Positions 832 to 61,367 of a stretch of DNA of 64,000 nt are shown here, piece after piece (the first letter of the stretch is position 1; each line of letters begins with the position of its first letter). Location: positions 69,591,901 through 69,655,900 of the forward strand of contig CM037591.1 of the NCBI GenBank assembly GCA_021018995.1, in the 5' to 3' direction. Below the pieces are notes generated by a model that was not told the DNA's origin, searched no databases, and worked only from the letters and a program-made list of their open reading frames with translations. The DNA comes from Chloranthus sessilifolius. Lineage: Eukaryota > Streptophyta > Magnoliopsida > Chloranthales > Chloranthaceae. The translations under genes were made by a program, and so were the position numbers.

Positions 832-860
832 GCCTAGCGTATGTATTACATACGCTAGGC
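832..860. repeat. Element A palindrome, upstream of PMD gene
   Basis: A perfect 29-bp odd palindrome centred on T846. The half-site is GCCTAGCGTATGTA, mirrored on the right. It lies about 670 bp upstream of PMD exon 1, matching the position of the B (34225-34292) and C (57896-58123) palindromes relative to their PMD genes. Confidence 0.95.
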
Positions 861-1530
861 CAAAATTCGGGGATTTTATGCCAAAAATGGATTTAAAACG
901 GCCGGGGACGACCAGGGACCCGAAAATACTTATTTTTCTAAAAATTTCTAAAAACCCTTTTCTTTTGAAATTTCTTTGATCTTATGCCAATGTGGTTAGG
1001 GTTCTTGCATCTAGATGATAAAAGGGGTGTTTCTTCTTACAAATGTGATCCCTATTGTGATTCTATGTTTATTTGAAGGGATTTTGGTGAAAACTTGGGT
1101 GAATCATGCCCCCTCCTTTGGGTTTTCTTGACTTTCTTTTTCTTTATTTTATCAATTCATTTAGGACTAAGATAAAAAGGGTTTTTTTTGAGAAAACAAA
1201 ATGCCTTTGATTGAATCGGTGATGTGTATCCACTTTTGGAATGGATTATGGCAAAAATTTGATTGATGGTGATCTTTTTGAAAACGTGTGGGATAAGAAA
1301 ACATGGATTTTTCTTGGTAAAGAGATTTTTATATTTATTTTGATTTTTGTTGGTTTGTTTTTTTTTTTGGTTATTGTTTGCTTTTGTTTTTGAATATTCC
1401 GGTATGAATGAGACATACTTACCTTTGTTGGGTTCCATGATCCTTTAGACAAGTGTAGCATCTCCTCTGGCTCATCATCCTTTAACATTTTGGCGGTGTA
1501 TCTCATTTCTGGATGGCCCAAAATTCATCA

Positions 1531-3525
1531 TGTGATGAGGACCAGGCCCACGAGGGGAGTCCTGATGTGATTTTTGGTATCAGAGGGGAACGTCTCATCC
1601 TGGTGTAGAGATCCATTCATATTTGGTACGAGATGCAACGTGATGCGGCCTGCAGTGGGTTACTTCATCAACAACACTCCCAATTTTCTAACTTCGGGAT
1701 TGCCAGCCAAGTAAAGAAAGTTCTTTAGTTGCTTCTTCTCTTTTTTTTCTTTTTCAGTTCATGCTCTTTAATCCTGGATCTGATATCCTCCATACTTTTG
1801 ATATAGCCCTTGCCCCATATCATGTTTCATGGGGGGTGGTTTCATCTTCAGAATTTGTATGCCCAACTCCTCTTTACCGTGCGATTTCTCATGGCCCAGG
1901 CAGGTTTTGGAGACTTTCTATCCTGCCCTGCTATGCGGGGCGACACAGCCTATGTGAGGGCTCTGGTGGAGAGGTTTCATCCAGAGATGATGACCTTTCA
2001 TATGCTTGTTGCTGAGATGACCATCACTCTTGTAGACTGGGCTATGATCACGGGGGTTGGGATAGGGGGAATGCAGGTAGTCTGTCCTCGCGTTCCTAAT
2101 CATGAGGAGGTGGCTCGGCTGATCAGGGCATATCCCTCCTCCAACAACATGTCCGGCTTCGAGGTCAAGTTATCCTGGTTGGAGAGTCTATTTGAGACCG
2201 ATGAGTTGATTGACCCATTCCAACTAGATGTGGACGTTGTCATTGAGTCTGAGTGTGCCCTAGTGTTGGCTCATATCTCCCTTCTGTACATTCTGGGCAA
2301 GACAATTCTTACTAATGCCAATGGGGGAAGTGTTGTGTTGTCCCTCCTCTAGTTGATGGAGAATTAGGGGGACGTACATCGCTTTGACTGGGGCAACACC
2401 GGTTACGCGGTGCTGATGGATAGCCATGCCAGAGCGTCTATTGGGGATTTTGCCTCTATCCTCAGTTTTTGGCATGTGATTGAGGTAGGCCACTTTATTT
2501 TGCCCCTCTTAGTTCATTACCTCTGACTTTCATTGTTTGGTTTGATATGTTCTTTATTTGTTCATCCTTTTTAAGATTTAGGGGTACTTGCACTTCCTAC
2601 CTGGCCGTCCCCTGCTGTTCTTAGACGAGTGTACCTATCCTCTCATGAGTTGCTGGCTCCCAGACCATTGCTGAGAGGCAGGGATGAAACACCTAGAATT
2701 CGGTCTGAGGTCATAATTTGACCTGATGATCCCTGAACAAGTTTGAATCTCCTTTTCCTTGATTGGTTGGATTTTCTGAGCTATGAACGCATTGATTGAC
2801 TGACAGATTTTTTCTTTCTTGTGTAGATTGTTTTTGATTGGCTCTCCATGTTGTTGACCGTCGGGTCATCTTTTTCTATGGTGCCTGGGTCCAAGACTAC
2901 TATCTGGGGGAGAGGGTTGTGCACCAGTACCGGGACCTCTTTGTAGTGCCAATGGGTCTCCCCGAGGATGTTGGGGCATCTGCTGTAGGGGTTCAGGGTG
3001 CTTTCAAGCACATGGGTGATGCATTTCTTTCTAGCTTGTCTGCCGATGTAGCTAAGTGTGCTCGTCTTTCTGCCGAGGCGGTTAGAGTTCCTCCCCCTGA
3101 GTTGATCCCTGGGGTGAGTTATTTTCTATTGGTAACATGTCTTCTTTAGTCTTTTCATGCTACTGACCTTTCTATTCTTCCCCCTTTTGTAGGTTTATGA
3201 GTCAGCCATTTAGCAAGAGGACTACTATTGCCATATTGTAGACCTCCGGGAGGCTGAAGTGGTAAGTATGATATTGGGTTATCCCTTCTGCATTTTGGTT
3301 GGTTTACGCTATCATGCATTGATCCTTCTTGTATAATGCTTTCAGCGCACTAGGGAGAAGGAGTCTCGTTCACTACTCAACCATCTGTCCAAGGCATGGT
3401 CTCACGTGGGGGATACTTAGACATTTCAACAGGCTAAACGCTCACGGAGAGGGACTTTAAGGACCTGGAGAATGATAGAGGCTGCCTCTGTGGCCTTTTC
3501 TTTTCCTTTGTTTATGAACATTTGA
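1531..3525 (+). pseudogene. Plant mobile domain (PMD, aminotransferase-like) gene of element A, antisense to the element
   Basis: I read about six exons: 1531-1710, 1807-2484, 2576-2750, 2827-3113, 3195-3261 and 3346-3525, with GT/AG borders in most cases (donor GTAAAG after 1710, donor GTAGGC after 2484, acceptor before 2827). Exon 2 holds the PMD core: FGDFLSCPAMRGDTAYVRAL, then RFHPEMMTFHM, EMTITLVDWAMITGVGIGG. Exon 4 carries RVIFFYGAW and YYLGERVVHQY. In-frame stops occur at 1606-1608, 2350-2352, 2365-2367, 2579-2581, and once each in exons 5 and 6. PMD proteins are known both as host factors (MAIN/MAIL1) and as passengers in plant transposable elements; the tight alignment with B and C says this is the element-borne type. 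Intron borders are my inference from three-way comparison. It cannot now make a full protein. Confidence 0.8.
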
Positions 3526-3999: not shown

Positions 4000-4120
4000 C
4001 TAGCATATGTATTACATACGCTAGGCATTTCTAGGCATTTTCTGGCCTAGCGTATGTAATACATACGGTAGGCAAATTTTGGGGATTTTACGGCTTAGCG
4101 TATGTAATACATAAGCTAGG
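4000..4120. repeat. Element A palindrome cluster (3 copies) downstream of PMD gene
   Basis: Three copies of the CTAGCGTATGTA-W-mirror palindrome at 4000-4024, 4046-4072 and 4094-4120, each with one or two mismatches. They sit past the 3' end of the PMD gene, matching the C cluster at 53982-54100. Confidence 0.93.
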
Positions 4121-13710: not shown

Positions 13711-14191
13711 AATACTAAAGATTTGTCCTCTTTGATAGAGAAATTAGTCCGTTTTCCATCAACTACTTGTCTGATGGTCACCAGTTCTTCATCGGTCAAT
13801 TGCTGCTCGCAGATTCAAGTGAAGAGTGTTGACCGAATAATAAGGATGGCCATTAGAGCCCTAGATTCCTTTACATTAAATGTCATGTCAACCAAGGCTA
13901 AATCCTCAAGTAGATGACATTTGCGGATTCTTCTGATGAGGTGTGATAATAGGGCAGATGATTTTCGGCTCAGCGCGTCTGCTACCACATTTGCCTTTCC
14001 TGGATGGTAGTTAATAGCTCAATAATAATCTTAAGGACTTTCATCCACCTCCCCTGCCTCAAATTCAGATCCCTCTGGGTGAAAAGATACTTGAGGCTTT
14101 TGTGATCAGTGAAGATTTCAAATGTTTCACCATATAGATAGTGCCTCCATATCTTCAAAGCAATGATTATAGCTACTAGTTCAAGGTTGTG
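13711..14191 (-). pseudogene. Element F RNase H / linker portion
   Basis: On minus, downstream of the E insertion, the frame reads [17 protein letters not shown] and then [14 protein letters not shown], the known end of Ty3/gypsy RNase H leading into integrase. Broken by stops. It continues across the E insertion at 24010-24356. Confidence 0.75.
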
Positions 14192-24794: not shown

Positions 24795-24805
24795 CCCAGA
24801 AGATG

Positions 24806-34224: not shown

Positions 34225-34292
34225 GGCGTCTATAATATATACGCCCAACCATTTTCACCAGATTTTGGTCAGGCGTATATAATATATATGCT
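34225..34292. repeat. Element B palindromes upstream of PMD gene
   Basis: Two copies at 34225-34245 (one mismatch) and 34272-34292 (two mismatches) of the palindrome with half-site GGCGTATATA around a central W. Confidence 0.9.
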
Positions 34293-34299
34293 CAACCAG

Positions 34300-36734: not shown

Positions 36735-36949
36735 GGCGTGTATATTACATACGCCCAGCCAATTTAGCCCCAGATTAGTCAGGCGTATATATTATATACG
36801 CCTGCCTATTTTGGGGGAAATTTGGTCGGGCGTATATAATATATACGCCCAGCATAGGTGGGACCCACCACGGGCTTCATCTTCCCAAAACTCCTCTGTT
36901 TTTGGTGAAAATCACTGTGCCTAAACTAGGCGAATATAATATATACGCC
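36735..36949. repeat. Element B palindrome cluster in the LTR
   Basis: Four copies at 36735-36755, 36782-36802, 36829-36849 and 36929-36949. The second and third are perfect 21-bp palindromes. The first has right half TACATACGCC, the element A version. Confidence 0.95.
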
Positions 36950-39082: not shown

Positions 39083-39510
39083 TGTAGATACCCAAATTTG
39101 GCCCAAGGCCCGATCGTAACACTTTTCGAGAGGGGCACACTTATGGGCTTTTAATGGCATGTATGGAACCCTTAGGAACCACCCAAAAACCCTTAGGAAT
39201 CACCCCAATCTCTTAGAAATCACCCTAGATCCCTTATGAACCTACCTCGAACCTTTACAAACTAATCCCGACCCTTAGAACCCATTTCGAATCCTAAACC
39301 GAACCCTATCAAGCTATGGATGAGGAAGGGTACACCGGAACTAGCTACAGCTGGCTACTATGAATAAATCTCATACCATTAAAAAGTACAGGGCGTCAGC
39401 TTTCCAATGGTCCAAGAATCTCCCCAATCGGAGTTGTACATAAAAAAAAAAGACGGTCTGAACCCGGAGGACAAAAGAGTAAAATCAAGTGGCCCCCCCC
39501 ATAGGGATTT

Positions 39511-39753
39511 GGCGCCACTAATAGTTCTCCCAGGCTATTTCTCCCCAGAATGGCCTGGCGCAACTAATAGTTGTGCCAACGATAATTTTGCCTGGCTCAA
39601 TTATTAGTTGCACTAGGCCACTTCTCCCAGGATTTAAGCCTGGCGCAACTAATAGTTGTGCCAGTATTAATTGTGGACCCCACCTCGGATAGCCAACTTC
39701 TAGGCACTATTTTAATGCACATTTGCCTGGCACAACTATTAGTTGCGCCAGGC
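39511..39753. repeat. Element C palindromes in the 5' LTR
   Basis: Five copies of half-site CCTGGCGCAACTA around a central W, near 39511-39530 (decayed), 39554-39580, 39591-39617, 39639-39665 and 39725-39753. The last is 29 bp with one mismatch. Confidence 0.93.
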
Positions 39754-40033
39754 ATATGAACAGTAAATGTTGGTTTTTACCCCAAATTTTGTGATTGGGG
39801 TTTGACTTGTTAACCACCTCGACCATTGGGGAGTGTTTTGCTAATTTCGTTGCACCCATTTGCACCCTATTTCTAACCCTTTAAGTGGCTTAAAGCCTCA
39901 CCCTATTATCCACTGTTGGAGGACCTTCTCACACATTTCAAGGCTCTAAAAACCCTAGGAAACCTTAGATGTGCGATTACCAAATTGCTAAACCCATTTA
40001 GCTCATTAGTAGCCTCCTAACCCACCCTTTTCC

Positions 40034-40041
40034 TATAAATA
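40034..40041 (+). promoter_or_regulatory. TATA box of C 5' LTR
   Basis: TATAAATA, matched at 60635-60642 in the 3' LTR. Confidence 0.6.
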
Positions 40042-40761
40042 GAGCCCCACTCCCCTTGGTTTAAGGGTGATAATTTTGGCCTAAGAGAGAAAGAGCTTAA
40101 AGTGAGAAGATCTTTCTCCCTTTGGTGCACACTTCCCATACAAAATCCAGAATTTCAAAACCTCCTTTGAGTGATATTTTTCACCTTAGATCCCTTAGCT
40201 TAGGAATATGCTACCCATTTACCTTCCCTCAACACTTCCTAGCTAGCAAGCCTTAGAGGTTAGACCCCCTCTTTCCACCATACAAGCCTTCAAGAGCTCA
40301 TCAAAGCAAGCCACGCAAGGCTCTCCTACGGTGCTACAAGGGCCCGAGGGCTCCGGCTCTCCCCTTTCTTCTCCTATCTCTTTCTAGCTCCATCCATCCT
40401 CCCATTAGTGCCATTACGCCGCCAACTTTTCAGTAGGGATGGAGGGCCACAAATAGGATTCTAAGCCCTTTTGGGCAAGAGAAAGTTATTTTCTTTTCTT
40501 TTACTTCATTTTATTTTTGGCCTTTAGTAGAGACCGCTTTAAGCGGGTTGATCAGGTGCCTAACACCTTCCTGATCGATAACCGAAGCCCCTACCCAAGA
40601 GCCTTTGGTGTGTACCGGAATCAGAGTCATATTTTAGCACTTCGGTGCTCATAAATCTGAACTAGGTTTCTTGGGACACCGAAAGATCTGGGTGGCGACT
40701 CTATTTTTTTTGCAAGCGGGCGCATCACCATGATGGGACCGTCACGAATCCTACGGTTTCA

Positions 40762-42250
40762 TAGATGGGGACTCTGCTGGGGATTAGCTAGTAGAGCTTC
40801 CCCTTGAGCTAGGCCTTTTTTTTTTTCCTAACATTTTATTGCTATTTTTAAAATTTATTTTCTACTATTTTTTTTTCACTCACCCTCCAATTAAGTCACT
40901 TTACTTACCCTACTTTTACGTCATTTACGAGCCTTAGCCGATTGGCGGGTCTACCTGCATATAGTCTTTAAATTTCTTTACTTTTCTATCATTTTAAGTG
41001 CCTTAGTCAATCAACGGGCCTACTTGAGCATTGCCTTTTAATTTCTTTAATTTTTCATCATTTAAAGTGCCTTAGCCGATTGGCGAGCCTACTTGTGCAA
41101 ACATATCCCAACAGTGAACGCCGACCCGTAGTGGCAGCACAAGGTTATCCCCCTCGGTCTTTGAACTAAAGAAAACATCGAAAAAAAAAAGAAAAGCTTT
41201 GAAAAAAATTATAATTGACCAAGTTAGGGAGCTTAATTAATTTGTTTTTACAGGGTAGATTTTAAAAGGGTTGGGATTAGGCAAAAACACAACCACTTGG
41301 GTCTTAGTATGGCGGCAGCCCCTAGTGGTGATGATCCAGAAAAGTCGCAGCCCACCTAGTATCTGAGAAGGCACTTGCGCCAGAGGTATATTGGGTGGGT
41401 TCCCATTCCGAAGCTTAAAACCCTTGGGGAGCGCTCTAGCGAGTTATACCGGACTCCAACCCGCTAGGTACGGTAAGGAGAGAATCGATCACTGAAAAAT
41501 AGCTCAGTTCCTGGAAGCCAAGCTTCCACAAAACCCAAAAAAAGAGACTCATTCTGGGTGTTGATAGCTGCTTTCATACATTCTGGAGCATCAATTTTTG
41601 CCTGGCGCATATATTAGTTGCGCCAGTGCAAAAAACTGGAATTTATAACTAGCGCAACTAATAGTTGCGCCAACTTTAAAATTCAAGTTTTTACCTTGGC
41701 GTAACTAATAGTTGTGCCAGTATAAAAACAGTTCCCTGCAACCTGGGCGCATGTACTAGTTGCGCCAGGTCTGTTTAACAGCACACTAACTTGAACCTGT
41801 GGCCTTCTTCACCTCCCGAGTCCCCCGATCAGTGTGCTTAGTGCCTTGTTTAGGCATCGCCATCTCCGACAACCAATACGCCCCCGCCAATCAAAAGAGA
41901 GCAACTTCTTTTTGACTTATTTCGAGGGATCGGGTTGTTTGCCTCAATTTTCGTGCCTTGAATAAATCGAAGGTTCTCTTTCGATTCTTTCGAAGTGCGT
42001 CGGAATCGTCGCCGCTGGTCATGAATGACGGTACTAGAGCCACACAAAAAGGGAATTCCAAGGCCTCGGAACCTTTGTTTTTCAAAACTTTTTCAAAAAA
42101 ATTTTAAATATATATATATAATCAAAACCCAAAAAATTTATATATAGTTTGTGGTGCCAGCACAACGGCATCATCTTGCCGTCCACCGTCCCGTAGGGGA
42201 AGGAGGAGGATATTTGGGGTTTAACCAAGGCACCCTTACCCAACCCGTTC
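40762..42250 (+). mobile_element. Element C primer binding site and leader
   Basis: Directly after the LTR, TGGGGACTCTGCTGGGGA is a plausible tRNA primer site of the Ogre/Tat kind (tRNA-Arg in that lineage, from memory). The rest is non-coding leader with four palindromes at 41601-41770. Confidence 0.65.
41601..41770. repeat. Element C palindromes in the leader
   Basis: Four copies at 41601-41626, 41652-41670 (perfect over 19 bp), 41694-41720 and 41741-41770. Confidence 0.93.
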
Positions 42251-42253
42251 CCA

Positions 42254-43963
42254 ATGGATGGCGTGGGTAGTGGACTCGGCTTACGCCGATCCTGACTCAT
42301 CCCAGCCACATTCTCCAACCCACTCCCATTCGGGAGAAGTTTTTTCCACCATCCCCCTTACCCAACCCCCCTTTACCTTTACCGGCCTATTTGGCCCTCC
42401 CATTTTCCCCCCAAAATATCCAAAGTCAAACCCCCCATTCCCCATCTTTTGCCCAAACCATACCCATGCCAAGTCCAACCCATTTCCCTTCCACTTCCAC
42501 ACAAAATTCATTCTCCCAATCCATATCCATGCCCCATTTCCCATCTTCCCCCTATAGGCCCGATCCACCCACATTCACATACACCAATTCCTCCCTATCC
42601 AACCCCCCACAAATCCCCCTATCTACTCGGGTCATGGCCATTTTGACCTGGGCCATGCCCGGTTTCTTCCAAACATCCACACCCCACCAACCACCATCCC
42701 TAAACATCCCTAATCCCTCCCCATACTTTACCCCACCTCAACTCTCCAATCCACCCCATATCCCATATCTTACTAGGGCCATGGCCGATCATACCGGGGC
42801 CATGCCCAATTTCCCCCCTCCACCCCCCCCATCCAATCCTCCTTCCATGACCATGATGGAGGAGATGTTCCAAGCCTACTCAATGTGGAAGGCTTCTCAA
42901 AACACCTCCCCTCCACCACACCCCACATCCCTAAACCCCATCTCACACCGAAGCCAATCTCCATGCCGCACTCCTCAATGACCCTCATCAACCCCCCATA
43001 ATCCACCCCATCCAAACTCCCATTACCCACATGCCCCAAGGCCAAATGGCTCAAACCCCCTTTTCCCCCACACCCCAAGGCCCATTGGCCCAAACCCCCT
43101 TGTCCCACATATCCCAGGGCCCCATGACCCAATACCCCACCACCCAAACCTACCCAAGGCCCATGGCCTAGACCTATCAAGACCCCTTGGGCCAAACCCA
43201 TCAAGGGCCCATGCCCCATACCAACCAAGGGCCCATGGCCCATACCTACCAAGGCCCATTGGGCTAGACCTATCAAGGGCCCATAGCCCAGATCAACCAA
43301 GGCCCATTGCGCCAAACCCATCAAGAGCCCATAGCCCATATCCACCAAGGCCCATTGGGCCCACCCCATCAAGGGCCCATGGCCCAGACCCACCAAGCCC
43401 CATTGACCCAAACCCACCAAGGCCCATTGGCCCAAACCTACCCAGGGCCCATGGCCCAAGCCTACCAAGGGCCCCTGGCACAAACCCATCAGTGGCACAT
43501 AGCCCAAAATGACCAAGGCTTCATGACCCAAACCCAAACCCCACACTCATACCTTCCACAATACCCCCAACATTTCACCCAACCTTCACAGCCAAGTCAA
43601 ACCCATGCCATACCCCAAACCCAATTTTCCCATGGCCCCACACCCCAAGGCCATCTCCAAACCTTCCCCCATACCCAATGGCCCCATCAGGCCCCACCTC
43701 TAAACCAAAATCCCATCACCCAACAAACCTTCACAGCCAGGTCAAACCCATGCCATACCCCAAATCCAATTTTCCCATGGCCCCACACCTCAAGGCCATC
43801 TCCAAACCTTTCATCACCCCCAATGGGTTCACCCCACCCCCACTTATGACATTCTCGTCCAACCCGGGCAACAATAATAAGAAAATCCCGCCCTCACTGC
43901 ACATTATGCCGACCAACAGTATAAGGAGGACGAGATTAGGAATAGTGGGGCCTACGCTGGGAC
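42254..43963 (+). pseudogene. Element C proline-rich N-terminal gag region with 24-bp repeats
   Basis: Pro/Ser/Thr/Gln-rich frames at 42258-42557, 42391-42981, 43307-43849 and 43678-43968 in different phases indicate one long low-complexity coding region with several frameshifts. From about 43034 to 43520 the DNA is a tandem array of about 20 units of 24 bp, translating to an 8-residue repeat HQGPLAQT with variants. A long proline-rich start before gag is common in Tat/Ogre elements. The minus-strand Gly/Leu frame over this region is a shadow of the repeat. Confidence 0.65.
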
Positions 43964-43964
43964 A

Positions 43965-45355
43965 TTGACCAGCCTTAAACCTCCTCCTATAAATGCCCAC
44001 CCCTTGGTGGCCCAAAGTGAAGTCCAACCGATGGCCGAGAAAGCAGCCCCTGCATCGAAAGAGTCAAAACAGCTAAAAGCGCAGTTGGACAAAATACAGA
44101 AGCAGCTGATGAAAATGGGTGGTGTTGAAATCTACGCCACGGACTTCACAAATTTGTGCTTGTTCGCTGAAGTCCCCCTGCCCCCCAAATTTAAAATGCC
44201 AGCCTTCGACAAATATAATGGCACTGGCAATCCTATTGTGCACTTGAAGTCCTACTATGGGGACATGTGCCAATATGGAGGGGATAAAAGACTACTAATA
44301 AAAGTCTTTCAGAAGAGTCTGACCGGGCCGACTTTGAGATGGTTCATATCTTTAGAACCATCCATGATGAAAACATGGAAGGACCTGACGCACCTCTTTC
44401 AAGAACAATATGTCTACAATATAGACATTGAGCCGCGTAAGTCAGACTTAGCCCGTTTAAAACAGAACCAGAATGAGACCTTCAGTGACTACTTGGGACG
44501 CTGGAGAGCACTTGCAGCTCAGGTTAGAAACAGAATACCAAATGATTAGCATATAGAGATGATCTCAAAGCATACTCTGCCAGTGATCTCAAACTTTTTG
44601 GTGTACCAGCAGCATTCTAGCTTTACTGATCTGGTGAGAAATGCTAACCGATATGAGGATGCCATCAGGGAGGGCCATCTGTGTAAGAACATGCCAAGTG
44701 GACCCAATGGGGTTAGGAGGTTTTCGGAGCAAAGGAATGATAAGAGAACAGGGGGTGAGGTTCAGAACATAGCCAATACCAGGCCCAATAACAACACTAC
44801 CCCATTTCAATTTCAGGCAACTCCCTTAGCACCAGTCAGGCCTGAGCAGATGCAGAGAATAGGGAATGGGCAAGGAATGCAAATGACTCTAGAGCAGAGG
44901 ATAGCTCGCTACGACCAAGTTTTTACGCCTCTGGGGCAATCATTGAGTGCACTTTTGCCTTTGTTAGTAGAAAAGGGATTAGTCACTATCCGTCAACCAC
45001 AACCACCTCCTCACCCGATCCTAAGGAATTATGGCCCGAATACCCACTGCAATTTTCATCAGGGTCCGGGTCACCCAACTGATCATTGCTTCCCCTTGAA
45101 GCATGCCATCTAGGATTTAATCGATACTGGGAAAATCATTCCCCTGCACCTACTCAGCATGCTACCGGAGGAGCAGGCCCCAGACCCACCGTCGGAATGA
45201 TAGAAGATGAGGGAGAGTTTGAATTTGACCCATCTGATTATATCAGTGATCGGGAGAGTTATGTGGCACCATTGTCAAGGAACATGGAAGAGAGGAACAT
45301 AGGGGTAATTGAACCCCTAAATTTGTTAGAATATTTCCCTAACCTAACCTCGTAA
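43965..45355 (+). pseudogene. Element C gag
   Basis: Gag core at about 44160-44540: FKMPAFDKYNGTGNPIVHLK, LTGPTLRWF, WKDLTHLFQEQYVYN and SDYLGRWRALAAQV. The reading frame continues past a TAG at 44547-44549 to YEDAIREGHLC and a zinc-knuckle-like HCNFHQGPGHPTDHCFPLKH (45050-45110), then a TAG at 45111-45113 where this lineage normally has Gln. A frameshift near 45140 leads to the frame ending at 45355. Structural protein of the virus-like particle; not functional as read. Confidence 0.85.
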
Positions 45356-45460
45356 TTTGAACCCTTAGATCTCAGGGCATACTTTCCATCCACCACATCC
45401 ATCAACTATGTACATATCAATGCATACCAACCATACATCACCACCCCCATCAATTACCCG

Positions 45461-46955
45461 ATGAGCCAACAGGCCCCCAATCCCACACCCGCGCCCATCA
45501 GTTATCAATGGCCTACGCCCATCCCATCACCCCAAGTTCTGCCTGTGAACTTCACCACTCTGGTCAATTACCTAACGGCCCATCAGATCCCCCATCTCCC
45601 ACCAGCGCCCACTAGCCATCAATGGCCTACTTTTACCTCCTTCCCTCCAATGCCACCACCCTCAAACTTCACCACCCCTATCTGGCCCGATTTTTCCACC
45701 CAACCCGCTACAACCAAAATAAATCAGGTATTGCCCACACCTCTTGAGCTTGTAATACAAGTACCAACAGCCATACCTTTCTAGCTCTCGAGACCAGCCT
45801 ATGATCCTGATCAGGTCCTGCTAAGCTACGAGCAAACAGATGTCAATGTTGGCAACACTAGCAGAGAAGGGGCAGTAGATTTTGTTACCAGGTCAGGGAG
45901 GATATCGAAGTAGCTAGAAGTGCCAGCAGCAGCGTAAGCCCAACCAGTGGGGAAGAAAGACAGTGTTGTGATCGAAAAAATGAGTCGAGAATATATACTA
46001 CAGGCTCAACTGAGAAGAAGGCCCGCCCATATAACCGTTTGGGATCTGTTGATGACGTTCCCACTCCATTTTCAAGCATTAATGGGGGCGTTAAAAAATG
46101 CACATGTATCACTCCAAGTTAGCCCAGATGAAGTCGGGCAGATAATTGGGCAAGTGATGGCTCCAAATGCCATTTCATTCTCTGATGCTAATTTACCAAA
46201 AGAAGGGTGTAGCCACTCCAACTCATTAACAGATTGGGGTCAATCAATGCATGCTGAGGCCCACCAGAACCAACGCAGGAGGGTTTGACAATACCAGGAG
46301 AGAAATAATGGGAGAAGTTGATATTGAGCTGCTGATAGGGCCAATGACCTTTTCCATCTTATTTCAAGTCATGGATATCAAATCTTTATTTAATCTATTG
46401 TTGGGGTGCCTGTGGTTGCACGAGGTCGGAGCCATACCTTCCACTTTGCACCAAAAACTCAAGTTTGCGTCTAGGCATAAAATTATTACAATCATTGGTG
46501 AGAGGTATAGCGAGAAAGAAAAAGTCTCCAATAGCATCAAAAAACTGAATGTGTTGGATATACCGCACACCGCTGAGGATGTCGACCTCCGCAATTTTAA
46601 ATATGAGGCGTCAGCGATACTCTCGGAGCCCATTGAAGGCATCATGCCTAAAACAAGAGGCGGTATGGTAGCGGCGGTAGCTATGCTCCAAAAGTGGGGC
46701 TACCAGAAAGGCCGAGGGCTCAGGCCTAGATTACAAGGCAGGAGAGAGCCACTTGTTGCTAAGGGGCAAAGAGTAAGATTTGGGCTGGGGTACAGGCCCA
46801 TAGAGGAAGTGGTCCGAGAGGCCAAAGAAAAGGCCAGGGTTGCCACAGCGGCAAGAGCACAAGGAATCAACATAGAAGAGAAACCTCGCCCTAGGCAGCA
46901 CAACTGGGATTCCTTTGTCAGCGCTGGGGTCGTAAGATCGATCAAAATGGGGTAA
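45461..46955 (+). pseudogene. Element C protease region with G-patch
   Basis: A proline-rich stretch (45461-45784) is followed by VDFVTRSGRISK (45880), typical of the start of Tat-type pol, and the pre-protease part at 45947-46220. The protease C-terminal half is at 46251-46500: FDNTRREIMGEVDIELLIGP and LLLGCLWLHEVGAIPSTLHQ. The segment that should hold the catalytic Asp between about 46220 and 46240 is missing. A G-patch follows at 46660-46800: AMLQKWGYQKGRGL and RFGLGYRP. Several frameshifts and stops. Confidence 0.8.
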
Positions 46956-47422
46956 CCCATTTGACCGCACACAATCCCACAGCCCCAATGCATCCCACCA
47001 ATCCCCATATCTCCCTTCCCAGCTTCGAAATAGATTTGGCTGCGTTATCCCTCTTCGAGGAACGACGGCCAGTACCTGAATAAACACCCCCTGTGATAAA
47101 TCACCACAAAATGGTATTGACAAAATGGGAGTCAACATGATGGAGGCTAAATCCAATGAGCCATATCAGTCAACACCCTCCATCCAAATAGGTAAAAGAG
47201 TGGCTCCTTAGGTGCGCAACTGGGCATCTTTGCCCCAAACTCTAGAAGCAGGGAGTGGCCTAAAGTTTGACACATGTTTCCTAAAAAAACAACCTATAAA
47301 AAGTGAGATAAGCCCTTGGCAGGCAATACCTTGTATATATAGTAACCCGCTTTGCCAAGGGTCCGTCTCTGTAGAAAACAAAAATCTCAAAAACATGGAA
47401 AAAATACAAAATCCCAAAAACA
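46956..47422 (+). other. Linker between protease and RT of element C
   Basis: No conserved domain. Ogre-like elements have an intron between protease and RT; this AT-rich, frame-poor stretch is where one would be, but I cannot define splice sites. Confidence 0.3.
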
Positions 47423-48500
47423 TTGAAAAAATATCAAAGTCCAAAAATATCGTCATTTAAAATTTCAGAAAAAGTTCCACAAAAGGATGCCGTAATCGAA
47501 ATACGCGTCCCACATAAAATCAACCCCTTTCCTATAGAAATACAAGAAGAGGTAGGAGTTACAAGTCTGGACAAGGAGAGTCCTTTGGAGGAGCTCCCCA
47601 ATTATCTCCTTTACCGGTTTGCCGACTTTGAGCATGGCCCTACCCTGGTTGACGAAGAGACAGAGGATATCAATTTAGGGACTGAGGAGATTCCTAGAAT
47701 AACCAAAATCGAAATGTCGTTGTCCCTTGAAGAAAGAAAAAGCATGATTGAATTCCTTCGATCATACCATGATGTTTTTGCCTGGTCCTACGAGGACATG
47801 CCTGGTCTAGATACTGATTTGGTTGAGCATGAGTTGCCTCTCTACCCTGATATGAAGCCAGTTTAGCAGAAGCTGAGACGTCTCTGATCCGAGTGGATGT
47901 TGAAAGTCAAAGATGAGGTCATCAAGTAATATGATGCCTGATTTCTCATGGTATTCAAATACCTGCAGTGGCTAGCCAATATCGTGCCCGTACCGAAGAA
48001 AGATGGAAAGGTCTGCATGTGCATCGATTTTTATAATTTGAATAGAGCGAGCCTAAAAGATGATTTCCCACTACCACACATCGACATCTTGGTCGATAAC
48101 ACTGCTAAGCACGGGATGCTTTCATTTATGGATGGATTCTCAGGATACAATCAGATCAAGATGGCAGAGGTTGGTCATGAGAAAATGACATTTATCACTC
48201 CTTGGGGAACCTTCTACTACAAAGTCATGCCGTTTGGGCTAAAGAATATCGGTGCAACATACTAGAGAGCGAAGCGAGATTGAAGTGTATGTCGATGTCG
48301 ATGATATGATAGCCAAGTCACTGGAGCGAAGCGATCACTTGGGAAACCTTTAAAAGTTGTTTCAGAGCTTGAGAAAGTATCGACTATGTCTGAATCCATA
48401 GAAGTGCGCTTTTAGTGCTATGTCCAAAAAATTGTTAGGATTCATTGTCAGCCGGAGAGGGATCGAGGTCCACCCAGTAAAAGTTAATGCCATCACTTAA
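47423..48500 (+). pseudogene. Element C reverse transcriptase
   Basis: Pre-RT acidic stretch, then SYHDVFAWSYEDMPGLD, WLANIVPVPKKDGKVCMCID, LSFMDGFSGYNQIKMA, TFITPWGTFYYKVMPFGLKN. Stops at 47864-47866 and about 47887, 47927 and 47939; TAG at 48263-48265. A deletion follows, then the catalytic YVDD region at 48288-48306, which reads YVDVDD because GTCGAT is tandemly duplicated at 48291-48302. Belongs to the Tat/Ogre group by its wording (PGLD, PVPKKDGK, DGFSGYNQI). Confidence 0.9.
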
Positions 48501-49010
48501 ATGCTGCCACCGTCTACTGAGAAGGAAGTTAGAGGGTTCTGGGACATAATACAATATATCAGTCGGTTCATTACACAGCTAACTCCAATCTGCACGCCAA
48601 TCTTCAAGCTACTAAGGAAGAACTCACCCGTTGAATGGAGCGATGACTGTCAAGCAGTGTTCAATAAAATTAAAGGCTACTTCCTTAATCCATCTTTTTT
48701 GGTACCACCCGAGCCAGGGAGACCACTCCTGATGTATCTCTCCATGACAAAAATCTCGATGGGATGTGTCTTAGGGCAGCATGATGAGACAGGAAGAAGA
48801 GAACTGGCCATTTACTATTTAAGCAAAAAGTTTACTGATTATGAAATGCACTATTCTCATCTGGAGAAAGCATACTTGGCTCTTTTATGGGCTACTCAGA
48901 GGCTCGGCCATTACTTTCTATCTCAGGCCATTCTACTCTTAGCCCAAATGGATCCATTGAAATACCTGTTCGAGAAGCCTGCTGTCACTGGGCGAACTGC
49001 ACGATGGTAA
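48501..49010 (+). pseudogene. Element C RT connection and first RNase H
   Basis: Frame with EKEVRGFWDIIQYISRFI, PLLMYLSMTKISMGCVLGQH and YYLSKKFTDYEMHYSHLEKA, ending RTARW then TAA at 49008-49010. This is the gypsy-type RNase H that in the Tat lineage acts mainly as a linker. Confidence 0.85.
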
Positions 49011-49016
49011 TTTTTA

Positions 49017-49490
49017 TTGTCTGAGTTTGACATCATGTACATCACTCAGAAGTCGATTAAGAGGCAGGCACTCGCCGATCATCTTGCCGACAATCCTTTG
49101 CCAGATTATGAACCTTTGAGAACTGAGTTTCCAGATGAAGATATCTTGTTCATGACGGAAGACGATACTAAGGAAGCAAAAGAATCATGGGTAATGCACT
49201 TCGATAGGGCAGCAAATGCCGAGGGCCAAGGAGTTGGCACCATCCTGATTTCATCGAAAGGATCCAACGTACCCGTCTCTATCAAGCTCAACTTCCCTAG
49301 CACAAACAATATGGCTGAGTATGAAGCATGTGTCGTTGGTCTACAGGCAGCTCTCGATCTAAATATAACTCACCTTCGAGTGTTTGGTGATTCATAGTTA
49401 ATCATATGCTAGACGAACGGTGACTGGAAGACGGAAGATGAGAAACTGATCCCTTATTATGAACACCTCAAGGATCTGATAGCTTACTTC
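49017..49490 (+). pseudogene. Element C second (archaeal/plant-type) RNase H
   Basis: WVMHFDRAANAEGQGVGTIL, then NNMAEYEACVVGLQAAL and LRVFGDS. The Asp of HFD, Glu of AEYE and Asp of GDS fit the known acidic active-site residues. A TAG at 49395-49397 directly follows GDS and another at 49410-49412. Two RNase H domains in tandem are a known trait of Tat elements. Confidence 0.8.
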
Positions 49491-49496
49491 CAAGAT

Positions 49497-50904
49497 GTGA
49501 CATTCTCATATGTCCCCCGGATAAGGAACCGTTTTGCCGATGCTCTAGCAACTTTGGCGTCAATGATAGAAATCCCGTATGGTGCTGAGATGAAGCCGAT
49601 CATGCTCAAGCAGAGAAGTGAGCCAACCTTCTGCCTCCAGATTGAGGAACCTACAAAGCCTGATGATGAGCCACCTTCGTTCTCAGATATCAAGAATTTT
49701 CTCGACACCCTAACTTTCCTTGAGGGAACGTTCAAGACAGATCGAAGGACCATTCAGTGTCTAGCAGCAGGTTATGTCATTTGCGGGAATGCCTTTACAA
49801 GCGATCGTACAATAACATCTTACTCAGGTGCCTTACAGAAGGTGAAGCAGTAAATATTATGAAGGAGATCCACGAGGGAGTATGCGGAGCCCACGTCAGC
49901 GGTCACGTGTTCGCCAAGAAAATTCTACGGTAGGGATACTTTTGGACCACTATGGAATCAAATTACTGTAAACATATTTAGAAATGCTACAAGTGTCAGG
50001 AACACTCCAGTCTGATACACGCTCCTGCCATTGATTGCATGACCACTACTTGGCCATTTGCTACCAGGGGCCTTGACGTCGTCGGAATGATTAGCCCAAA
50101 AGCATCAAACGGACATCGGTTCATCCTCATCACCATTGAATACTTTACCAAATTGGTAGAAGCAGTGTCATATGCCAACATCACTGCCAGTCACATCGAG
50201 AAGTTTCTCAAGAACAATATTGTGTGCCCATTTGGAGTATCCAAGGACATCATCATAGACAATGGCACCAATTTTGTAAATAAGCGTACCTGAGCTTTCT
50301 ATGAGCAATACAAAATCAAGCACCATCGCTCGTCACCTTATCGACCTCAAACTAATGGAGCCGTGAAAGCTGCAAATAAGACAGTCGTCCGCATCCTAGA
50401 GAAAATGGTCGTCACTTACCGAGATTGGAGCAAAATGCTGCCATTTGCTTTGTGGGCCTATAGAACATCAATCCATACCACTACAAGGGCAACACCATTC
50501 TCTCTTGTGTATGGAACCGAGGTCGTCCTACAGGTAGAGGTGGAAGTACCCTCACTTTGAATCCTCATGGAATCAGGCTTACCCGAAGCGAAGAGAAAAA
50601 GTTCACACTTTGAACAATTGTACTTATTGGACAAGAAGAGACTCCTAGCCTTATGTCATACTCAAGTTTACCAGGGGAAATCGCACGCGCTTATAATAAA
50701 CGTGTCTGCGGTCAAGATATAAAGGTAGGAGATACTATGCTGAAGAAGATCTTCCCATCCCTCCACGCTGATCCGAGAGGAAAGTTCAAGCCAATCTGGG
50801 AAGGACCTTACGTTATTCGAGAAGTGCTACCGAGATACGCCATCCGCCTCGCCACCATGGACGGAGATCATCTTCCTGAGCCCATCAGCGCTGGATACAT
50901 CTGA
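49497..50904 (+). pseudogene. Element C integrase
   Basis: Linker FSYVPRIRNRFADALATLAS (49503), zinc-binding part at about 49860-50010 with GAHVSGH and KCYKCQ, catalytic core with LDVVGMISPK, then IIIDNGTNFVNK and PYRPQTNGAV. The position of the third catalytic residue, a Glu in this lineage, reads Lys (AAA, 50366-50368). C-terminal part 50653-50904 with FKPIWEGPYVIREVL. No chromodomain, fitting Tat. Stops at 49931, 49979, 50291 and 50558; a frameshift near 49850 and another before 50653. Confidence 0.88.
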
Positions 50905-53981: not shown

Positions 53982-54100
53982 CCTGGCACAACTATTAGTT
54001 GTGTCAGTGCATTTTGGTCCCCATTTTTCCTCGCGCAACTATTAGTTGTGCCAGCACAAGTTGCCTATGATTTCAACCTGGCACAACTAATAGTTGCACC
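53982..54100. repeat. Element C palindromes between the two antisense ORFs
   Basis: Three copies at 53982-54006, 54032-54054 and 54077-54100. Same position relative to the PMD gene as A's cluster at 4000-4120. Confidence 0.93.
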
Positions 54101-54479: not shown

Positions 54480-56915
54480 TTGCCCTTGGATTTCTTGTGA
54501 TGGCGAGAAGAGCTCTGAAAAGTCCGCATGTCCCCCACCCTAGACCACGCCTGCGAGATCCTACAGAGCAAGGAGTGCGACTCCTTGGCACGAGCACACT
54601 ACGAGACATGAACAAAATCAAGAGTCAGGATCAGTTGAGGGACAAAGGGTAATGGAATAAATGAAGAGGAGTAGAATAGCAAGGCACTCACCATCTCAAC
54701 CTCCCTAAGCTCCACCAAGTGACGATGATACTCCACATACCCATGGCCGAGTTGAAGTCCTACGTTCAGAATGATACAATATCAGCTATTAGGAAAATCT
54801 TAAAAGCATGTATAGAAGGAAATTGAAATGAAGAGAGATTGGGTCATCAGAAGACTTACTCCTAGAACCACATCAGGAGGAGGAACACGGGCCACCTCAG
54901 CAGAAAGTCGCGCCTATAAATCCACATCAGTGCTGAGGCTCAAAAGGAAACTATCATCCAGGCGTCAGAAGGTCCCGTAAACCATGGGTAGATCACCACC
55001 AAGGATACCAGCATGAGAAGTCTCCGACAGACTAGCACCTGAAGAGCCCTCACCCGAGGGGCCCACACCAGAAGGACCATCACTAGAGGGATCAACCCCT
55101 GACATATCAGCTGCACTTAGCTCACCTTCACCATCCGAATCATCCCCTGAATCAAACTGTGAACAAAATAAAGATCCGATTAGAGGGGATAAAAGCTGAA
55201 TAAAAGCATAAAGGGAACTAATCCAAGCCAAGATAAATTACCTGACCGAGTGGGCCACCAAATGCGAGAAAATTGGCGCTAGGTACAAAGCGCGGCAAGA
55301 GGAACCGATGGGGCAGGCACTCGTACCAAAGATGATAGTCCCCGGGCACATGGAGAGCATGGATAGGGAGCACATTGTTGAAAAAGGCCACTGTGAGCTC
55401 CTCGATACTGCCAATGGGATTCCAATTGTCTGCCAGAGGGTCCACAGGTATGGCATAGTAGCCCTAAAACTGGTGCACCACCCGCTCTCCCAGATAATAA
55501 AATTTGGCCCATGATCCATAGAAGAAAATGACGCAGCGGTTATTGAGCAGGCGAGAGGGGCCTACAGCTGCCTGATCCCAGAAGGGAGATGAAAGGTACG
55601 GGTCAAGGAGGATTTGTCCAAGCCAAAAGAAATCCAAGCAGGTAGCACATCAGTCAAAGGAGATTTCCGAGCTAGAACCAACAAGGGTTGAAAAAGGGTT
55701 TTACCTGCTCGGGATCCATCAAGTCAAGTTTGGACCTTAGACCAATCTCCAAATGCTTTAGGCCCCTGTCACGACGTTGGGCCTGATTCTAGTTACTGAG
55801 GAGAGGATAGGTAAGCCCCTCCGAGTGAAGAACCGGGCGCCCAGGATGGAAGTGATGATATCCCCATACCTAAAAAAGGAGACAGTACATAGGAGCAGGT
55901 TAGTAGAACATAAAGATCATTCAAGAAAATTGACAAAAGCAAAATAATGAGGGATTACCTCTAAGGCGGCCCAAAAACTGTCAGCACACTTGGAATCCCC
56001 AATGGTGACTCGAGCTACATTGTACATCAGCCATGCATACCCGAACCCTCCCCAGTCGTACTTATAGACGTCACCCCAATTGTCCATCACACTCAGCAAT
56101 GCCAGGCTGACTCGGTCCCTGCTGGCATTAGTAAAAAAGGTCTTGACTAGCAAGAGTAGGAGAGTGATGCGGGCTAGGACGATCGCCCGCTCTGGCATGA
56201 TGTAGAGAGGCCTATCTTGCTGATCCAGATCCACTAACTCATTAGGGGTGTAAAGTGAGGTCAGCCAACACATCTTAACCTCGGTACCATGGGGCCTGCC
56301 TGCGAGAGGGATAGGCCCCAATCAGTCGGACAATGTCCTCTCGACTCAGCACTGCGAGATCAGATATTGGTATCCCCCTATCCTGACGTCAATAATCATG
56401 GCCCAATCAATGGGTGTCAAAGTCATCTCTGCATATGGCATGTGAAAGGTCATTATCTCAAGGTGAAACCTTTCAATCAAGGCTTTCAGATAGGCAGCGT
56501 CAGCCCTCATGGCAGGGCAAGATAGAAATTCTCCGAAGCCCACCTATGCTAGCAAGACCTTCACCATGGGAGGGACATAGAGGTAGAACTCATGGAAGTC
56601 GAGCCACCCACCACGGAATACGATGTTGGGCAGGTCCTGCACCTAAGAAAATGCACATTAGACCACAAAGACAAAGCAAAAACTGCACAATAGAAATAAA
56701 TTGAACCTCTCTTTTACCTTGCCCGCTATCCCGAAATTGAAAATGTGGGTATGCTATTGGTGAAGGAGGTCGACTCGGGCAGCCTCGCCTTACATCTCGA
56801 GCCATGAGCCCGCCCTCCGATCTACCCAAATGAACTCTTCCCCCCGCAAGCCGTATACAATCTCAGGCCCCTGCTCGTGGCCCTCCTCAGGAATATGCTC
56901 ACCTTCGCCCGACAT
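54480..56915 (-). pseudogene. Plant mobile domain gene of element C, antisense to gag-pol
   Basis: On minus the ATG at 56915 starts MSGEGEHIPEEGHEQGPEIV; exon 1 runs to about 56720 with a TAA and a TAG that read Gln in B. Exon 2 begins after TTCTTAG near 56645 and carries GFGEFLSCPAMRADAAYLKA, RFHLEIMTFHM and TPIDWAMI. A frameshift near 56330 follows, then TFFTNASRDRVSLALLSVMD, YKYDWGGFGYAWLM and a donor near 55962. Exon 3 is about 55869-55707, exon 4 about 55568-55259 (CVIFFYGSWAKFYYLGERVV). The rest extends to about 54480 (basic, Arg-rich). An Asp/Ser/Gly-rich stretch at 54990-55150 may be a hinge. Antisense ORFs between integrase and 3' LTR are known in Tat elements; a PMD there fits the PMD-C class. 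Confidence 0.8.
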
Positions 56916-57797: not shown

Positions 57798-58015
57798 GGG
57801 ATGGTTTTCAGTTTCAAAGAGGAAGGAGGGGGAGAAAATTTTGAAATAAAGCCCCCCGACCCAAACTCGGGCTGTTTAAGTTCCCTAGCAAAGCCTGGCG
57901 CAACTAGGGATGGTTTTCAGTTTCAAAGAGGAAGGAGGGGGAGAAAATTTTGAAATAAAGCCCCCCGGCCCAAACTAGGGCTGTTTAAGTTCCCTAGCAA
58001 AGCCTGGCGCAACTA
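57798..58015. repeat. 109-bp tandem duplication ending at a palindrome axis
   Basis: Two nearly identical 109-bp units start GGGATGGTTTTCAG at about 57798 and 57907. The first unit ends in the half-site CCTGGCGCAACTA and then jumps to the next unit, so the junction falls at the centre of the palindrome; the second unit carries on into a complete palindrome. Confidence 0.92.
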
Positions 58016-58123
58016 TTAGTTGCGCCAGGCAAAATTTTGCCCCCTTTTTGCTTGGCGCAACTATTATTTGAGCTAGGCTCTTTTGAGGCCCCTAGTGGCC
58101 TGGCGCAACTAATAATCCACCAG
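57893..58123. repeat. Element C palindromes upstream of PMD gene
   Basis: A half copy ending at 57906, a perfect 29-bp copy at 58002-58030, a variant at 58051-58077 and a decayed copy at 58099-58123. Confidence 0.93.
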
Positions 58124-59829
58124 CCACTTAGGCCGGGTCTTGGGCCTGGTACGGGCCAGATGGGAAGACCGATCCCCCCATTGTTTTTGTTTGTTCTATT
58201 GCCCCCGACAGATGCACGTGCTCCCAAGGCGGCATTTCGATCATCCTTCGACTTGCCAAGAGAGCCGTGCTAGAATAAAAGTGGACCGAGATCAATGAGC
58301 ACCCCGGCCCTACACAGGAAAATATAAAGAAAAATCCAACAAAGAATCCCCACAGAGAAGCCGGAAACATTCACAAGAAAAATCCACATAAAAAAATAGC
58401 TTCAAAAAAATTAAAAAAAAATCACATAAAATAATAAACTCCAAAAAATCACATAAAATAACAGTTGAAAAAAATTCGAAAAAATCGCATAAAATGATAG
58501 AAAAGTCAAAAACAGATTTGTATTCCCCACAGAGACACACACTTGCATGTTTTCAATGCGGTAAAATGTCAATATTTTATCAACAATGTAGCTATGCCAT
58601 ATTAAGGTCCCAAGTCTAGGGTTCACCTCAGATCTTTGGATCCTGCCTTAAGGTAGGAGCAACTGTATCAGTCTCGGCCAAACAGTCAGTGTTTCGATCG
58701 AGTCGACTCCACTGCTAAATCTTTGCGATAAGCGCTCTGTTTTGAATTCATGTGAACTTAAGTATCTTAAGCTTCAGATTCTCCGTTGGAGAAGGTCAAT
58801 CGTTGGTTGAGACCAACCTGTTGAGAATGAGATGACGTGTCAATCAAACTATGTGCAACCATGCATTCAGAAGGGATCATCTCCCTTTCTTATTTTTTGC
58901 AGGCTTAAAACCTGTATGGGCAGCGATATCCCTATAAAGTGTACGCCATGCGTCTGGGTATCCGTATGATGGTCGTTTCTCCCTGTAAATTATATCCGGG
59001 CAGGTCCGAGTCAAGGCTTCCATCACCTTTGTTGTTGCTTATTGTCCCTGATGGGTGCATGATTATGCATAGTTAATTGATGTTTATGATCATTGTCAGC
59101 AGAGACCAGGATTGGATGTCTCTTTAGGGAGACACCCCAATGTTTGGTTGGATCTATTTAAGGTAGTCGAAGTTGGATGCTCTAGATCATGTTAAACTAA
59201 GGCATGTCTTCGAAAATGGCACGTCCTCCCAAAAAGCGTTGCGATTTCTATTCGCTCCGTGCAGATAGTCATGCTAAATAAACTTCGAGGTCGATAGGTT
59301 CGCCCAAAGATCTCGAACCCTACTTTCAGCAGGGGCACCCGTGAATAGTCCGATGGGGCCATCAAATGCCTCGTAGGATTAGACACAAACTGTGGAGCCT
59401 TGCATATTTTTGCTTTGCGCCTATCTTTGAATGTGGGTCGATCACCCCTCTTACTTACAAAGCTGTTGTATTCAGAATGAATCTCAAACATCAATCACCT
59501 TCAAATTATCTCGAGAAGCGAATGTTTTTCCTGACTAACGAGCTTTCACAACTCGAGAAGCAAATGTTTTTCCCAGCTATTGGGCTTTCACAACTCATTC
59601 CACCTCGGTTAGGCCCAGTAATGCTGCTAAGCGCTTGGGAATTGATTACCTCAAGAAACAAATGTTTAGCCTGACATCCTAGGGCTTTTATTTTCTCACC
59701 GTGTTACTCACCCAATGTTTGAAGTTTATTCTGAATGTAGTGGACCCGTCAGTAATTCCTTAAGCCTCTTCGGATGTCTCTTTTCTCTAGCATACTATCA
59801 TTAGTGATCGGATACCAAAGAGGGGCATC
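58124..59829 (+). mobile_element. Element C spacer between PMD gene and 3' LTR, with polypurine tract
   Basis: Non-coding. Shares the TTGCGA...ATTCGCTCC module (59237-59350) with A and B. Three copies of a unit with AAGCGAATGTTTTTCC and GAGCTTTCACAA at about 59513, 59565 and 59655 form a short tandem array. Ends in the polypurine tract AAAGAGGGGCATC (59817-59829). Confidence 0.75.
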
Positions 59830-61367
59830 TGTAGACACCCAAATTTTGCCCAAGGCCCGATCGAAACACCTTTTGAGAGGGGCACACTTCTGGGCTTTTG
59901 ATGGCATGTATGAAACCCTTAGGAATCACCCCAAACCCTTAGAAATCACCCTAGATCCCTTAGAAACCTACCCCGAACCTTTAGAAACCAATCCCGACCC
60001 TTAGAACCCATTCCGAACCCAAAATTGAACCCTATCAAGCTATGGATGAGGAGGGGTGCACCGGAACTTGTTACAGCTATCTACTATAAACAGATATCAT
60101 ACCATTGAAAAGTAGAGGACGTCAGCTTTCCAACGGTCCAAGAATCACCCTAATTGGAGTTGTACATCAAAATCTATGACGGTCCGAACCCGGAGGACAA
60201 AAGAGTAAAATTAGGTGGCCCCCCCTAGGGATTTGGCACAACAAATAGTTGCGTCAGGCTATTTCTCCCCAGAAATGGCCTGTCATAACTAATAGTTGCT
60301 CCAATGATAATTTTGCCTGGCGTAACTAATAGTTGCACCAGTATTAATTGTGGACCATGAACAGTAACTGTTGGTTTTTGCCCCAAATTTCATGATTGGG
60401 GTTTGACTTGTTGACCATCTCAACCTTTGGGGTGTGTTTTGCTAGTTCTGTTAGACCCATTTGCACCCTATTTGTAACCCTTTAAGTGGCTTAAAGCCTC
60501 ACCCTATCATCCACCATTGGAGGACCTTCTCACACATTTCAAGGCTCTACAAACCCTAGGAAACCTTAGATGTGGGATTACCTAATTGCTAAACCCATTT
60601 AGCTCTTAAGTAGCCTCCTAACGCACCCTTTTCCTATAAATAGAGCCCCCCTCCCCTTGGTTTAAGGGTTGAGAATTTTGGCCTAAGAGAGAAAGAGCTT
60701 AAAGTGAGAAGATCTTTCTCCCTTTGGTGCACACTTTTCATATAAAATCCAGAATTTCAAAACCTCCTTTGAGTGATATTTTTTCCCTTAGATCCCTTAG
60801 CTTAGGCATATGCTACCCATTTACCTTCCCTCTCTACTTCCTAGCTAGCAAGCCTTAGAGGTTAGACCCCCTCTTTCCACCATACAAGCCTTCAAGAGCT
60901 CATCAAAGCAAGCCACGCAAGGCTCTCCTATAGTGCTACAAGGGCCTGAGGACTCCAGCTCTCCCCTTTCTTCTCCAATCTCTTTCTAGTTCCCTCCATC
61001 CTCCCATTTGTGCCGTTACGCCGCCAACTTTTTGGTATGGACGGAGGGGCACAAATAGGATTCTAAGCCCTTTTGAGCAAGAGGAAGCTATTTTCTTTTC
61101 TTTTACTTCATTTTATATTTTGCCATTAGTAGAGACCGCTTTAAGTTGGTTGATCGGGTGCCTAACACCTTCCCGATCGATAACCGAAGCCCCTACCCAA
61201 GAGCCTTTGGTGTGGACCGGAATTAGAGTAATTTTTTTAACACTTCGGTGCACATAAAAATGAACTAGGTTTCCCGGGACATCGAAAGCTTCGGGTGGCG
61301 ACTCTATTTTTTTTTGTAAGCGGGAGCATCGCCGCAACGGGACCGTCACGGATCCTACGGTTGCGCA
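59830..61367 (+). mobile_element. 3' LTR of element C
   Basis: Starts TGTAGACACCCAAATT, ends near GGTTGCGCA; about 1.54 kb. Same order as the 5' LTR but about 140 bp shorter, lacking two palindrome units. TATA box at 60635-60642. Followed by ACAAG, the right target flank. Confidence 0.92.
60233..60341. repeat. Element C palindromes in the 3' LTR
   Basis: Three copies at 60233-60258, 60279-60302 and 60316-60341, against five in the 5' LTR. Confidence 0.92.

Follow-up and report, generated by a model that had tools for sequence, protein, structure and literature searches.

What, if anything, reads a palindrome that recurs, in slightly different versions, in several retrotransposons of one plant genome? 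The question is raised by a 64-kb stretch of Chloranthus sessilifolius DNA (GenBank assembly GCA_021018995.1, contig CM037591.1, forward-strand positions 69,591,901 to 69,655,900; hereafter the window), where a first-pass annotation made from the letters alone had noted an odd-length palindrome common to three element families. All copies are held by three related Ty3/gypsy elements, A, B, and C, recognized by self-comparison of the window. Element C spans 22 kb, is an Ogre-like member of Tat, and has long terminal repeats (LTRs), pol, and a gene of plant mobile domain (PMD) type in antisense orientation. We consider it moderately probable that such Ogre-like Tat retrotransposons use the palindromes as cis-regulatory DNA sites, read by a two-fold symmetric factor whose recognition is specific to the element. 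The data are three families within this one window, and published work is cited from excerpts of the papers.

Copies and versions of the palindrome

Both strands of the window were scanned for RGCGYAWNTAWTANWTRCGCY (RGCGYAWNTA-W-mirror, 21 bp) with up to three mismatches, with 100 shuffles as the control that had been proposed alongside the original observation. This returned 26 matches, against a mean of 0.17 and a maximum of 1 per shuffle, and a decayed 27th copy with four mismatches (39511) lies in register within an array of element C. A palindrome common to three families is thereby borne out, 26 of the 27 copies fitting the motif, and the earlier count of about 30 stands for A (4) and B (6) but comes down to 17 in C, where about 20 had been given, and to 27 in total. 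The half-sites are as previously proposed: AGCGTATGTA in A, GGCGTATATA in B, and GGCGCAACTA in C. Long perfect copies likewise recur, namely two of 29 bp (832–860 and 58002–58030), one of 25 bp (36780–36804), and one of 23 bp (36828–36850). An unbiased search for palindromes with 10-bp arms, at most one mismatch, and at least four G/C found 23, of which 14 are this motif, the other nine being slightly above the three to eight found per shuffle (10 shuffles). The two sets of shuffle controls rule out a chance origin.

Because the 27 copies were picked by motif and register and the family consensuses were built from them, the versions were instead tested by comparing array with array, the two C LTRs, which are mutual copies, counting as one array here and separately among the 27 copies and 18 spacings. 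For every copy (27/27), the closest match outside its own array comes from the same element and not from either of the others. The "coordinated drift between families" suggested in the first-pass annotation thus needs refining, since arrays at different places of one element carry that element's version. Two C sites in the 5' untranslated region (UTR), at 41604–41624 and 41746–41766, look like hybrids, the inner bases of the left half being B-like (ATATA) or A-like (ATGTA) and the right half being of C type.

Beyond these elements, an unclassified repeat pair in the window (14189–16955 and 21245–24009) gave no match in the three-mismatch scan. A search of viral contigs gave no hit with the C core or the A core and two contigs with the B core, one site each, and a search of genome contigs with the C core gave four contigs, again one site each, where simple arithmetic predicts about two. 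No match of the RNase H piece to viral contigs was confirmed.

Spacing and spacers

The 18 spacings between adjacent copies are 47 bp (eight), 48 bp (five), 46 bp (one), 37 bp (two), 87 bp (one), and 100 bp (one), so that 14 of 18 are 46–48 bp, those within the two C LTRs not being independent of each other. Their helical phasing, on average half a turn at 10.5 bp (R 0.91), is only suggestive, because 14 of the 18 represent one value and the two 37s come from the LTR copies of one element. Among the four C arrays the cores are 0.79–0.83 identical, whereas 18-bp spacers compared between these arrays average 0.413 against 0.382 when shuffled (142 comparisons). Across A, B, and C, spacer means by array pair are 0.37–0.50 against nulls of 0.34–0.40, and the best single pair reaches 0.83 in A (836 versus 4049), 0.56 in B, and 0.72 in C. 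Spacing is thus largely kept where spacer sequence has mostly diverged, and traces of unit copying remain. Several spacers hold a GGGG or CCCC core inside A/T-rich sequence, e.g. 4074–4092, 36807–36824, and 54010–54027.

Imperfect palindromes can be corrected from a hairpin template, and in an account without selected function the tandem repeats would have spread by unit copying while such correction kept them symmetric. This account gains from the spacers common to arrays of one element (0.83 in A), from the C LTRs differing by unit loss, and from the frequent and variable tandem arrays of Retand elements (PMC11963269). It does not readily explain why most between-array spacers lie near the shuffled level when the cores are about 0.8 alike, or why different elements have arrays at corresponding places, namely U3 and the stretch ahead of the antisense gene. 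We regard it as quite unlikely on the whole. Whole-unit copying as such may have played some part, most between-array spacers being near the shuffled level but the A pair reaching 0.83 and others up to 0.72.

Symmetry of the arms

Over 14 base pairs counted from the axis, the consensus is symmetric at 14/14 in A and C and at 11/14 in B, so the proposed outer symmetry is not common to all versions and the 21-bp core is the part that the three share. All differences between core consensuses are mirrored in both arms (two pairs between A and B, three between B and C), in keeping with the earlier statement that mirror symmetry is retained when inner bases change. Across the 27 aligned copies, 82.3% of cells pair, compared with 72.9% when partners are redealt (none of 500 redealings reaches the observed share) and with 25–37% in slid controls. 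Cells with changes on both sides number 39, against 19.5 in shuffles. Single copies have decayed. Watson-Crick pairing is kept in 226 of the 270 pair cells of the core, the other 44 comprise 17 sense G-U, 9 A-C, and 18 other, and 34 of 54 core CpGs are intact. The central TAWTA is among the best-conserved parts of the motif.

Placement of the arrays

The positions of the arrays are given in Table 1. In all three LTRs within the window (3/3), they lie 300–523 bp upstream of a TATA-like box. A second group lies upstream of the inferred start codon of an antisense PMD-like gene, by 0.66 kb in A and about 1.1 kb in B and C. In C this gene sits between pol and the 3' LTR, and in B it precedes the LTR; A, which also has it, is a minus-strand element truncated by the edge of the window, with its LTR outside. 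The first-pass annotation had mentioned neither the regular distance of 46–48 bp nor the position of arrays ahead of TATA-like boxes nor the antisense PMD gene.

The antisense PMD genes

An extra open reading frame of PMD type is present in all three elements, the match to PF10536 (PMD) exceeding the cut-off in A only (1807–2349, E 7.9e-14) and the B and C pieces being similar to A. Differences between A and B in the longest alignment number 64, 41, and 101 of 195 at each codon position, and those between A and C 13/78, 13/79, and 40/77. A 248-nt block of B and C has 45/81 at the third codon position against 23/82 and 9/83, and in five shorter blocks one phase, its frame not assigned, is also highest. 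This is a pattern of past protein-level selection, on genes that are now in pieces in the window. The three proteins are about equally distant, with 30 (A–B), 32 (A–C), and 31 (B–C) of 45 residues identical in a shared block. A protein homologue search with the A piece gave 209 candidates, none at E 0.001.

Relation to known systems

The palindrome arrays are thus a real feature, and one with a precedent in the Ty1/copia Sireviruses, which have such arrays in U3 and ahead of an additional gene. There, each element has 8 or more copies, up to 32, which cluster in the LTR upstream of the TATA box and, where present, upstream of the ENV-like gene, with a core common to families and differing intervening bases, and the motif has been termed a Sirevirus-specific feature (Bousios et al. 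2010, PMC2829016). The present elements likewise carry palindromes in the LTR before the TATA-like box and ahead of an additional gene, and they too have a common core with variable inner bases. They differ in the core itself (GCG-N13-CGC rather than CGG-CCG), in having longer, odd-length palindromes (21–29 bp) at mostly 46–48 bp, in further arrays within the 5' UTR and behind pol, and in an extra gene that is antisense and of PMD type. The host element also differs, its domains and their order, with integrase after RNase H, being those of Ty3/gypsy and not Ty1/copia.

A functional precedent is offered by the VANDAL MULEs, in which tandem repeats with motifs particular to the element are bound by VANC proteins that relieve silencing (Sasaki et al. 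2023, PMC10398659). Our elements resemble VANC targets in their noncoding tandem repeats, in short motifs that differ between related elements (27/27 nearer their own), and in an extra gene within the element; however, VANDALs are DNA transposons with demonstrated VANC binding and anti-silencing, the evidence here is sequence, and PMD is not VANC.

Closer relatives belong to the Tat lineage, whose Ogre and Retand clades can be told by an additional RNase H lying between the first one and integrase (Neumann et al. 2019, PMC6317226). It is above all Ogre that carries PMD, 57% of its elements having the extra frame (PMC6317226), and Retand elements have tandem repeats and antisense TRP28 genes predicted to bind DNA (PMC11963269); a regulatory role has been suggested for both kinds of frame (PMC6317226, PMC11963269, PMC7264820). 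PMC6317226 does not use the word "palindrome", and in PMC11963269 it appears solely inside a reference title. Literature searches, which covered open-licence full texts only, brought up no description of this motif or of palindrome arrays in Ogre or Tat elements. Within that scope the earlier remark that no description was known holds for the motif but not for the kind of feature, which is described for Sireviruses. A more distant parallel is seen in palindromes common to otherwise different Silene satellites (PMC3212565). The insertion-target palindromes of PMC6911290 were considered and set aside, as they average 5–6 nt at target sites, unlike the present ones.

Candidate binders and alternatives

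We propose that a dimeric factor would contact the outer GCG and the inner bases around the TA-W-TA center, that site separations of mostly 46–48 bp could let neighboring bound dimers interact, and that the arrays may serve two promoters, that of the LTR, where they precede the TATA-like box, and that of the antisense PMD gene. The sites, their places, symmetry, and spacing, and the single version common to the arrays of an element are observed, whereas protein binding, a regulatory role, and the identity of the binder are what we infer. The case for a selected two-fold symmetric site, as put forward in the first-pass annotation, draws on the enrichment, the mirrored consensuses, a pairing far above that of slid controls, and the retention of core and spacing while most spacers diverged. 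For a regulatory role speak also the LTR arrays 300–523 bp ahead of a TATA-like box. Several observations count on the other side. Double changes affect nine pairs, which 70 of 500 shuffles equal, and the 20 pair types are equalled by 86 of 500, neither standing out because there are few independent lineages (three), and single copies decay asymmetrically; the suggested co-variation of arms hence holds for the consensus differences and not clearly for the double-change pairs. Four of 18 spacings (37, 37, 87, and 100) are off the pattern, and unit copying, for which the spacers common to arrays of one element speak (0.83 in A, at most 0.72 elsewhere), could be responsible for some of the likeness in version and spacing. 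The TATA boxes and start codons were assigned by pattern matching, the 5' UTR and post-pol arrays are part of the genomic RNA and do not have a plain promoter position, and a scan of PMD-region pieces detected no DNA-binding domain.

The last-named arrays, with the pre-LTR and 3' U3 ones, also within genomic RNA, invite a role as RNA, either as stem-loops for packaging, dimerization, or translation control or as hairpins feeding small-RNA production. Folding was compared with shuffles for five stretches out of the nine arrays, two of the five lacking one unit, and all did far better (z −7.4 to −12.8), a further point to set against DNA sites, and small-RNA hot spots coincide with Sirevirus LTR palindrome clusters (PMC10760457, PMC5311732). 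The z-scores are not independent evidence, however, as any palindrome folds. A dimer DNA site is favored over an RNA hairpin because TAWTA, the would-be loop, is among the best-conserved parts, because sense G-U shows no clear excess as a strand bias (17, against 9 A-C and 18 other), and because the spacing, which hairpins do not need, is mostly fixed at 46–48 bp. An RNA or silencing role, to which the small-RNA hot spots still point, appears unlikely to us.

Enhancer use has been suggested for the Sirevirus motifs and for the BII boxes of the retrotransposon Tnt1, and the palindromes could similarly be enhancer sites of one host transcription factor family, an alternative that also concerns a DNA site and differs from our proposal only in the binder. 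It fits the arrays upstream of TATA-like boxes, the outer GCG common to families, and the Sirevirus precedent, where the authors' database comparison recovered mainly stress-factor sites (PMC2829016). A single host factor, though, would not demand element-specific inner half-sites across three elements of one genome (27/27), and we hold this alternative to be somewhat unlikely. Since element-specific versions coexist inside one host, the reader would differ between elements, unless copying within each element produced the versions, and a binder matched to its element is favored over a shared reader.

The obvious candidate for such a binder is the element's own antisense PMD protein, acting as activator or, VANC-like, as anti-silencer, as its gene is the only extra one recognized in the elements and was under past constraint. 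In a fully self-recognizing PMD system, the PMD protein would bind as a sequence-specific dimer to the arrays of its own element, those of the LTR as well as those by its own promoter, and counter silencing in a VANC-like but independently evolved manner, with protein and site co-evolving by family; this we put forward tentatively, as considerably more likely wrong than right. The shared spacers make both this proposal and the DNA-site reading in general slightly less probable, and the account without function slightly more so.

PMD-A clades are encoded only by Gypsy elements (PMC7156037, PMC5418596), and one account leaves the function of PMD to be determined, with speculation on anti-silencing for MULE-borne copies (PMC5418596). 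The host PMD proteins MAIN and MAIL1 are tied to transcription and silencing (PMC7156037, PMC5418596), and most genes down in all main and mail1 backgrounds studied share a promoter motif (PMC7156037). The likeness lies in PMD proteins linked to transcription and in a promoter motif of the affected genes; direct DNA binding by PMD is not seen in the excerpts of either paper. An element-specific 21-bp site near promoters would make the role of Gypsy-borne PMD genes testable by binding and reporter assays and, if MAIN and MAIL1 share ancestry with element PMD proteins, would bear on how these find their targets.

Anatomy of the elements

Table 1. Palindromes and other features of elements A, B, and C (positions in the window)
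Element	Feature	Position	Strand	Remarks
A	Palindrome copies	836, 4002, 4049, 4097		
A	Single palindrome	836..856	-	657 bp upstream (end to start) of inferred antisense start codon 1513
A	Array of 3	4002..4117	-	Spacing 47, 48; beyond 3' end of antisense gene region
A	Antisense PMD-type gene region	1513..3146	+	In pieces; inferred start codon 1513
B	Palindrome copies	34225, 34272, 36735, 36782, 36829, 36929		
B	Internal array of 2	34225..34292	+	Spacing 47; ~1.1 kb upstream of inferred antisense start codon
B	LTR array of 4	36735..36949	+	Spacing 47, 47, 100; 300–494 bp upstream of TATA-like box 37229
B	Antisense PMD-type gene region	31683..33128	-	Inferred start 33128; similar to A and C; weak sub-cut-off PMD matches
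C	5' LTR	39083..40761	+	Starts TGTAGA; right end by eye; TATA-like box 40034
C	5' LTR array of 5	39511..39749	+	Spacing 46, 37, 48, 87; 305–523 bp upstream of TATA-like box
C	Likely primer site	Directly after 5' LTR	+	TGGGGACTCTGCTGGGGA
C	5' UTR array of 4	41604..41766	+	Spacing 47, 47, 48
C	gag-pol pieces	43881..50901	+	gag 43.9k, reverse transcriptase 47.9k, RNase H 48.5k, integrase 50.0–50.6k
C	Array of 3	53985..54100	+	Spacing 47, 48; after pol, beyond 3' end of antisense gene region
C	Antisense PMD-type gene region	54968..56915	-	Inferred start 56915; weak sub-cut-off PMD match, piece 56349–56543
C	Array of 2	58006..58074	+	Spacing 48; ~1.1 kb upstream of inferred antisense start codon
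C	3' LTR	59830..61367	+	Right end by eye; TATA-like box 60635
C	3' LTR array of 3	60235..60339	+	Spacing 47, 37; 316–400 bp upstream of TATA-like box
	Repeat hit by C insertion	37948–39082 + 61368–62194		Second copy 6515–4514, minus strand

Element C matches RT_RNaseH at 48501–49007, RVT_3 at 49011–49394 and 49413–49850, and, below the Pfam cut-off, rve at 49982–50290; its reverse transcriptase match is just below the cut-off. The second RNase H-like domain (49.0–49.85k) between RNase H and integrase is that of the Ogre clade and also a Retand trait. The likely primer site after the 5' LTR may correspond to tRNA-Arg, whose use as primer is an Ogre trait. The two LTRs are at a Kimura two-parameter distance of 0.105 over aligned blocks, and the flanking target duplication is 4/5 alike (GCAAG at 39078–39082, ACAAG at 61368–61372). 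A homologous repeat beside element A shows the empty site, with a single GCAAG (minus strand, near 5.35 kb).

Smaller features were also recorded. The 3' LTR is without palindrome units found in the 5' LTR (39594–39749 versus 60315–60345), consistent with deletion between repeats. Tandem repeats of 24, 39, and 96 bp occupy 43012–43536, within proline-rich open reading frames before gag. An inverted repeat immediately precedes the likely polypurine tract and the 3' LTR, as TTTGGCATTCGATCATTAGTGATCGAATACCAAA in B (36304–36337) and imperfectly in C (59785–59822). In element A the corresponding stretch is cut off by the window at 1–21 (minus strand), the part inside being similar.
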